Shown here one piece after another: positions 30,594 to 31,028 of a stretch of 64,000 nucleotides of DNA. Position 1 is the first letter of the stretch. The number at the start of each line of letters is the position of its first letter. The notes under the pieces are model-generated. The model did no database searches. It worked only from the letters and a program-made list of their open reading frames with translations, and was not told where the DNA came from. Source of the DNA: Owenia fusiformis (Eukaryota; Annelida; Polychaeta; Sabellida; Oweniidae); the NCBI GenBank assembly GCA_903813345.2, contig CAIIXF020000010.1, positions 3,773,169 through 3,837,168 of the forward strand. Reading direction: 5' to 3'. A program made the position numbers and the translations under genes.

Positions 30594-30818
30594 ATGAACG
30601 GTATTCTTGTACAACCTAATGCAATCACAATTCACATGATGATGACAATGCTTTTGTTTGCGAAATCCGAGGATGTTCCTGAGAAAAGAATTCCCGATGA
30701 GCAACGACTGCTGTCAAAACTACTGGGAAATTACAACACGGCGGCTCGTCCAGTCTACAATGCGTCGCACCCCATAACTGTTCTTTTTGGACTAACATTT
30801 GTCCAGATTCATCAAATG
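30594..30818 (+). CDS. nAChR alternative exon 2a
   Basis: 225 bases encoding an alternative N-terminus. It begins with an in-frame ATG and a moderately hydrophobic run (ITIHMMMTMLLFA), then PDEQRLLSKLLGNY, RPVYNA and QIHQM, the start of the ligand-binding domain. It ends in phase 0 at ATG then GTAGGT, so it joins exon 3 (DEVNQVLTTNVWLEQ) in frame. Over 42 aligned residues it is about 60 percent identical to exon 2b. Upstream, GAATTTAG at 30585 is a weak acceptor that would also match the phase of exon 1. So it could be a mutually exclusive internal exon or a separate first exon with its own signal peptide. NAS in it is a potential glycosylation site. Confidence 0.75.
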
Positions 30819-30855
30819 GTAGGTTTGTTTTTTATCATTTTGATATAAATTCCAG
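30819..30855 (+). other. 37-base spacer between exons 2a and 2b
   Basis: Starts GTAGGT, ends TTCCAG, with a T-rich centre, so it carries both the donor of exon 2a and the acceptor of exon 2b. At 37 bases it is below the usual minimum for an animal intron, and joining 2a to 2b would also break the frame (phase 0 to phase 1). It therefore enforces exclusive use of one exon per transcript. Confidence 0.7.
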
Positions 30856-31028
30856 GTAATACAACAACGATGCGCGATAAGCATGGGCGAGAGAAGATAG
30901 TTCCAGATGAACAGCGGCTGTTGTTGAACATTTTAAGAAACTATGAGACAGCTTCACGCCCAGTATACAACGCTGCACAAAACGTTACTGTATCATTTGG
31001 TTTTATACTGACTCAAATTGCTGATATG
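30856..31028 (+). CDS. nAChR exon 2b: start of ligand-binding domain
   Basis: 173 bases, entered in phase 1 and leaving in phase 0 at ATG then GTAAGG. It encodes the N-terminal helix and first strand: KIVPDEQRLLLNILRNYE, RPVYNA, NVTVSFGFILTQIADM. NVT is a potential N-glycosylation site in the position common in this family. Joined with exon 1 it gives residues 26-83 of the mature frame. The acceptor ATATAAATTCCAG is adequate. Confidence 0.88.

Follow-up and report, generated by a model that had tools for sequence, protein, structure and literature searches.

Neighboring exons that are used as alternatives have been described in several settings. In human OGDH, exons 4a and 4b, like other sterically enforced mutually exclusive exons, are reported as adjacent alternatives whose joint inclusion is blocked because the distance from donor to branch point falls under a proposed threshold of about 50 nt (PMC7969005, PMC5740500). 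In the UGT1, protocadherin and GCNT2 loci, tandem variable first exons are described as being joined to common downstream exons (PMC3325998, PMC1885805). Among insect nicotinic receptors, tandem alternatives are reported for exon 4/4' of alpha4, exons 3a/3b and 8a-c of alpha6, and exon 7 of silkworm alpha8; exon 4 of alpha4 lies near the Cys-loop, and exon 8 of alpha6 (TM2) and exon 7 of alpha8 lie at the transmembrane region (PMC2064938, PMC2045683). A search of the open-access literature returned no title or abstract opening that described a comparable alternative of exon 2.

The window analyzed here, the whole stretch of 64,000 nt (G000:C10:3773169-3837168, + strand), contains one alpha-type nicotinic acetylcholine receptor gene with two versions of exon 2, termed 2a and 2b, that would work partly as sterically exclusive exons and partly as a variable-first-exon cluster. 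Like the OGDH-type exons, as outlined in those reports, they are adjacent alternatives too close for double inclusion; here, however, the exons are 37 nt apart in all, and a convincing acceptor is missing from 2a, which seemingly has its own start. The pair shows the adjacent homologous exons, the gap that is too short by length and the frame break upon joining that mark the steric class. As for same-phase acceptors that could serve a common upstream exon, 2b has a good one and 2a a weak AG at 30585. As in the outlined variable-first-exon clusters, the variable exons would be joined to one downstream set. Of the two, 2a carries an ATG and a signal-like stretch, and 2b has no such leader. In contrast to those clusters, only 2a resembles a first exon; 2b needs an exon 1 and keeps a typical acceptor, and an acceptor is therefore not missing from every variable exon. 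Further, the exons of variable-first-exon clusters are spaced by kilobases, compared with 37 nt here. The likeness to the insect nicotinic exons, so far as the cited reports describe them, is tandem duplication that provides alternative versions of one receptor region. Unlike exon 4 of alpha4, exon 8 of alpha6 and exon 7 of alpha8, the region duplicated here comprises the helix and first strand at the N-terminus, corresponding to positions 1-39 of the ligand-binding-domain profile.

Exons 3 to 7, all on the + strand, are common to both forms. They comprise exon 3 (45 nt, DEVNQVLTTNVWLEQ; 52877-52921), which starts in phase 0, exon 4 (110 nt; 54925-55034), exon 5 (107 nt; 56758-56864), exon 6 (429 nt; 57975-58403), which encodes the second half of the Cys-loop, YPCC and M1-M2, and exon 7 (551 nt; 59606-60156), which encodes M3, the cytoplasmic loop, M4 and the stop. 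Pfam matches were obtained for exons 4 and 6. The introns between exons 3 and 7 start with GT and end with AG, and these exons, once joined, read without interruption to the stop. The encoded protein shows the features of an alpha-type subunit, namely a ligand-binding domain, a Cys-loop of 13 residues, the vicinal cysteines of the YPCC pair and M1-M4, and has GEK ahead of M2. Among solved structures it is closest to the alpha4 and alpha7 receptors of vertebrates (E about 1e-110, best 5e-110), with an alignment that spans the ligand-binding domain and M1-M3 and in which M4 is aligned weakly. A single set of these later exons was found in the window, both by a Pfam search, among the 150 of 156 matches listed, and by a six-frame motif scan, which yields chance matches of its own and, since the Cys-loop is divided by an intron, is blind to that motif. 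The 21.8-kb intron separating 2b from exon 3 contains a near-perfect inverted repeat, whose arms of 1442 nt (36185-37626 and 38032-39473) are 99% complementary.

Exon 2a (30594-30818, + strand) comprises its own ATG, a signal-peptide-like stretch, the N-terminal helix and the first strand, and its open frame begins no earlier than 30579. Exon 2b (30856-31028, + strand) comprises a phase-1 acceptor, the N-terminal helix and the first strand. Both exons end in phase-0 donors (2a, ATG/GTAGGT; 2b, ATG/GTAAGG; scores of 7.2 and 8.2 bits; the median and minimum of 39 receptor donors, these two included, were 8.9 and 6.1), and both fit exon 3 because exon 3 starts in phase 0. An alignment of 2a with 2b, free of gaps, showed 27 identical residues of 46, a level that none of 100,000 residue permutations reached; at the DNA level, 85 of 138 bases were identical. 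The two were reciprocal best matches in a genome search (next-best copies, E = 0.002 and 3e-4), and a tree of 17 exon-2 copies grouped them together with support of 82/87, below the mark set by the tool for a firm branch. Each exon alone matched positions 1-39 of Pfam Neur_chan_LBD (E = 4.2e-5 and 5e-5) with scores of 23.5 and 23.3 bits, under the 26-bit cut-off for whole proteins, and each matched nicotinic receptors of known structure (best E = 0.00025 for 2a and 0.0054 for 2b).

Base identity between 2a and 2b at codon positions 1, 2 and 3 was 30, 39 and 16 of 46, respectively. Positions 1 and 2 together were alike at 69 of 92 sites, compared with 16 of 46 at position 3 (Fisher p = 7e-6), where the identity of 35% compares with 27% expected from composition. 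The value of dN was about 0.29-0.30; dS was saturated (not computable using NG86, 2.5 using ML), and neither exon holds a stop or a frameshift. Judging from these codons, the pair is an old duplication with both copies under coding constraint and both proteins kept, because positions 1 and 2 are conserved and position 3 is near random. The same pattern ruled out a recent, decaying duplicate. A duplicate arising from assembly or haplotypes was also ruled out, because the 501-base region of the exon pair occurs once in the assembly and the copies are 62% alike.

The 37-base gap (30819-30855, + strand) starts with GT and finishes with AG, and in it the 2a donor GTAGGT, a T-rich tract and the 2b acceptor ATTCCAG overlap. 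The shortest of 20 receptor introns was 116 nt; among 28 introns of myosin genes, whose lengths were estimated from the positions of 49 of 92 matches, the shortest was about 126 nt; the gap is one third of the shortest of these 48 measured or estimated introns. A branch-like TTTAT, picked by eye, has its A at base 16 of the gap. For comparison, the shortest spliced human intron named in one report is 43 nt (PMC4463651), and a donor-to-branch distance of less than about 50 nt is treated as a potential steric block in the OGDH-related reports (PMC5740500, PMC7969005). Splicing of 2a to 2b would join a phase-0 donor to a phase-1 acceptor, shift the frame and reach a TAG after 14 codons of 2b. Joining of the two exons thus appears very unlikely, because the gap is below the shortest intron and the donor and acceptor signals overlap. 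Retention of the gap within one long exon was ruled out by an in-frame TAA at 30846-30848. These results bear out much of the original prediction for this DNA, which described two homologous exons of a single nicotinic receptor gene, each encoding a variant of the N-terminal part of the ligand-binding domain and ending in phase 0 before a common exon 3, with a gap that holds a donor and an acceptor and is, by length, too short to splice, and with a frame break upon double inclusion.

Acceptors were scored using a weight matrix of 36 hand-collected receptor sites that included 2b (left-out scores, median 7.0 and minimum -1.1). The phase-1 acceptor of 2b scored 6.8 bits, close to the median. The search applied to the other exon-2 copies listed no acceptor for 2a, and the matrix found weak ones only. 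The sole phase-1 AG open to 2a, at 30585, scored 3.0 bits; 4 of the 36 real sites scored lower, and 15% to 31% of all AGs in the window scored at least as high. Further, AGs at 30575 and 30578, which are 10 and 7 nt ahead of 30585, compete with it. In 13 other receptor genes, 12 of 14 exon-2 copies judged by eye (L013 and L016 included, the L024 copy left out) carry, a short way ahead of the core, a phase-1 acceptor rich in pyrimidines, as 2b does. The original prediction, which took 2a and 2b for sterically enforced mutually exclusive exons, holds for the opposition of the 2a donor and the 2b acceptor; its premise that both are internal exons served by the same exon 1 is not supported, given 6.8 bits for the 2b acceptor and 3.0 bits for the only candidate of 2a. 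Position 30594, from which 2a was predicted to start, is an ATG and not a splice acceptor.

Exon 2 of L008 and of L017 has poor phase-1 AGs only, with an ATG and a hydrophobic leader within the exon. Exon 2a resembles these in its in-frame ATG, hydrophobic core and cleavage-like motif A-K-S/E, and no such leader is present in 2b. The signal peptide of 2a was called from hydropathy as the single criterion (best 9-residue mean of 2.12 on the Kyte-Doolittle scale); the stretch ahead of the hydrophobic core is long (14 residues) and lacks K and R. Among 444 ATG-started open stretches of 32 codons on both strands of the window, 68 were as hydrophobic as 2a, and 39 (about 9%) combined 2a-like hydropathy with cleavage-like residues. 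The leader is therefore moderate evidence, because these 39 window stretches equal it. Two other candidates were rejected. ATAAAAG at 30518-30524 was uninformative as evidence of a promoter, the motif being rarer in the window (16) than in shuffles (mean 23.6), and an upstream exon for 2b within 2a would leave no signal peptide, as the one phase-1 GT of the leader follows MN-G.

For the form containing 2b, a signal-peptide-like candidate exon 1 lies 11.6 kb upstream at 19180-19255 (+ strand), with a phase-1 donor, CAG/GTGAGA (score 9.7), and an alternative start Met at 19204. It matches the genome once, at itself. With limits of at least 6 bits for the donor and at least 2.5 for hydropathy, no other candidate in phase 1 appeared on the + strand of 1-30590; the scan found none in phases 0 or 2 of that strand and region, and none on either strand of 31031-64000. 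The upstream minus strand gave six candidates, which lie inside satellite, and looser limits gave three further donors. The scan is of unproven sensitivity, because of 10 paralogue loci used as a control only 3 yielded candidates, and because it missed exon 1 of L019, which is visible by eye and has a leader longer than the limit. We regard 19180-19255 as a candidate for exon 1 of the 2b form. The window also contains satellite-like arrays that extend across 10 kb (675-10767; units of about 82-83 nt), an open frame of 217 residues with a match to a reverse-transcriptase zinc-binding domain (14604-15254, + strand; zf-RVT, E = 1.1e-6) and, on the minus strand at 63170-64000, an open frame of 277 residues that runs past the window end and had no Pfam match at E 0.01.

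Whichever mechanism applies, 2a and 2b are probably used as alternatives. The favored reading, at about even odds, is that 2a serves as an alternative first coding exon and that 2b follows an exon 1 lying upstream. One alpha-type gene would then give rise to two subunits whose N-termini differ by the choice of first exon. The long form would start upstream, in the candidate exon 1 with its predicted signal peptide, and would be spliced into 2b, bypassing 2a because 2a lacks a usable acceptor. The short form would be transcribed from a putative promoter just upstream of 2a, and its protein would start with the ATG and predicted signal peptide of 2a. The 2a donor would skip 2b and join exon 3, because it cannot pair with an acceptor 37 bases off, and the outcome would be exclusive because this donor overlaps the pyrimidine tract of 2b. 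More tentatively, the promoter might lock the splice: the choice of start alone would set the exon and hence alter the N-terminus, because the donor of a first exon overlaps the acceptor tract of the next. In upstream transcripts, the 2a donor, left as an orphan, may also damp the use of 2b by holding U1 on the 2b acceptor tract.

Three other explanations were weighed. That 2a and 2b are internal, mutually exclusive exons, so that one exon 1 is joined to 2a (acceptor 30585) or to 2b (acceptor 30855) and then to exon 3, with 2a-2b joining blocked sterically and by frame, seems unlikely on balance. In its favor, the AG at 30585 is in phase with exons 1 and 3, as one site in three would be by chance. 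The resulting exon (30586-30818, 233 nt) and 2b (173 nt) are both of length 3n+2, which suits a phase-1 acceptor and a phase-0 donor, and L020 of this genome carries a pair of exon-2 copies, each of 152 nt, with phase-1 acceptors and phase-0 donors. However, the 3.0 bits of 30585 fall below 32 of the 36 real acceptors, AGs at 30575 and 30578 rival it, and its use would put a second signal-like hydrophobic stretch behind the signal peptide of exon 1.

It is improbable that one exon of the pair is in use and the other is a relic or rarely used. This would accord with an exon 1 for 2b that is a candidate 11.6 kb upstream and with the lack of a good acceptor in 2a, but synonymous change is saturated while amino-acid change is low, both copies are free of stops and frameshifts, and the donors score 7.2 and 8.2 bits against a receptor median of 8.9 and minimum of 6.1. 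Neighboring receptor genes do occur elsewhere in the genome, such as L020 and L024; that 2a and 2b each open a different gene of a tandem pair, with the genes separate or in part lost, is nonetheless highly improbable, given that the motif scan and the Pfam search (among the 150 of 156 matches listed) found a single set of later exons in the window and that 2a and 2b fit one and the same next exon.

The two versions differ at a sequon, which is NAS in 2a and NAA at that place in 2b, with NVT four residues on. The first strand ends with QIHQM in 2a and QIADM in 2b, directly before DEVNQ, the loop that couples binding to gating. The N-terminal helix and loop aid subunit assembly, and the N-terminus is thought to help decide assembly partners. 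If true, the swap would change the assembly helix, shift the glycosylation sequon and alter the residues just before the gating loop, and it would add an N-terminal swap to a family of receptors in which exons are known to be swapped elsewhere in the protein. The 37-nt gap would offer a compact natural test of the distance at which a donor and an acceptor exclude one another; if the start choice does lock the splice and the 2a donor damps 2b, these 37 bases would exclude the hybrid and also adjust the balance between the forms.

Duplicated exons were also found in other genes of this genome. L020 (G000:C1:13783500-13793000, minus strand) resembles the present locus in having two homologous copies of exon 2 (152 nt, phase 1 to phase 0) with phase-0 donors and a frame break if joined. 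In contrast to 2a and 2b, its copies are 286 nt apart, have two phase-1 acceptors and no start of their own, and are accompanied by three copies of exon 4. The L020 pair would thus be plain mutually exclusive exons, because both have a phase-1 acceptor and lack their own start; with two exon-2 and three exon-4 copies, the gene is a candidate for six combinations. In L024, adjacent to L020, one exon 2 and one exon 4 were found in 8 kb. L021 (G000:C10:21714500-21722500) has three tandem copies of exon 4 (locus positions 4362-4466, 4760-4864 and 5496-5600), bounded by AG and GT, ahead of a single exon 5-6. L015 has two copies of exon 4, for which two genes are the other possibility. A hand-made consensus peptide gave 77 exon-4 matches in the genome, 8 of them in the arrays of L020, L021 and L015. 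Position 3 was the least conserved in all 7 pairs of L020 and L021 copies compared, although positions 1 and 3 were little apart in one L021 pair (20, 28 and 18 of 35 at positions 1, 2 and 3). By this measure, duplication of ligand-binding-domain exons is recurrent in this genome, because L020 and L021 hold tandem copies in which position 3 is least conserved. Together with the present pair, L020, L021 and perhaps L015 suggest that receptor diversity in this animal has repeatedly arisen through tandem duplication of exons.

An apparent second exon 2 in L019 was ruled out as an exon copy and consists of short degenerate repeats. In L022, several exon-3-like pieces (QIMTTNAWLRQ) occur at 1732-2384, in a short-repeat array after exon 3. 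In L025 (G000:C9:37985500-37995000, minus strand), which encodes a myosin heavy chain, one motor-domain exon (TYSGLFCVVINPYKRLPIY...) occurs in 12 tandem copies, and the exons downstream of them are single; the cores are open, the matches of two copies cross a stop just before the core, and the whole looks like a large array of alternative exons. On the small contig G000:C155, a row of five matches to the receptor ligand-binding domain, among the matches listed, extends over 1295-18059, and the domain is intronless in them; four of the five copies have open frames of 474-498 aa, and two of the five have in-frame stops.
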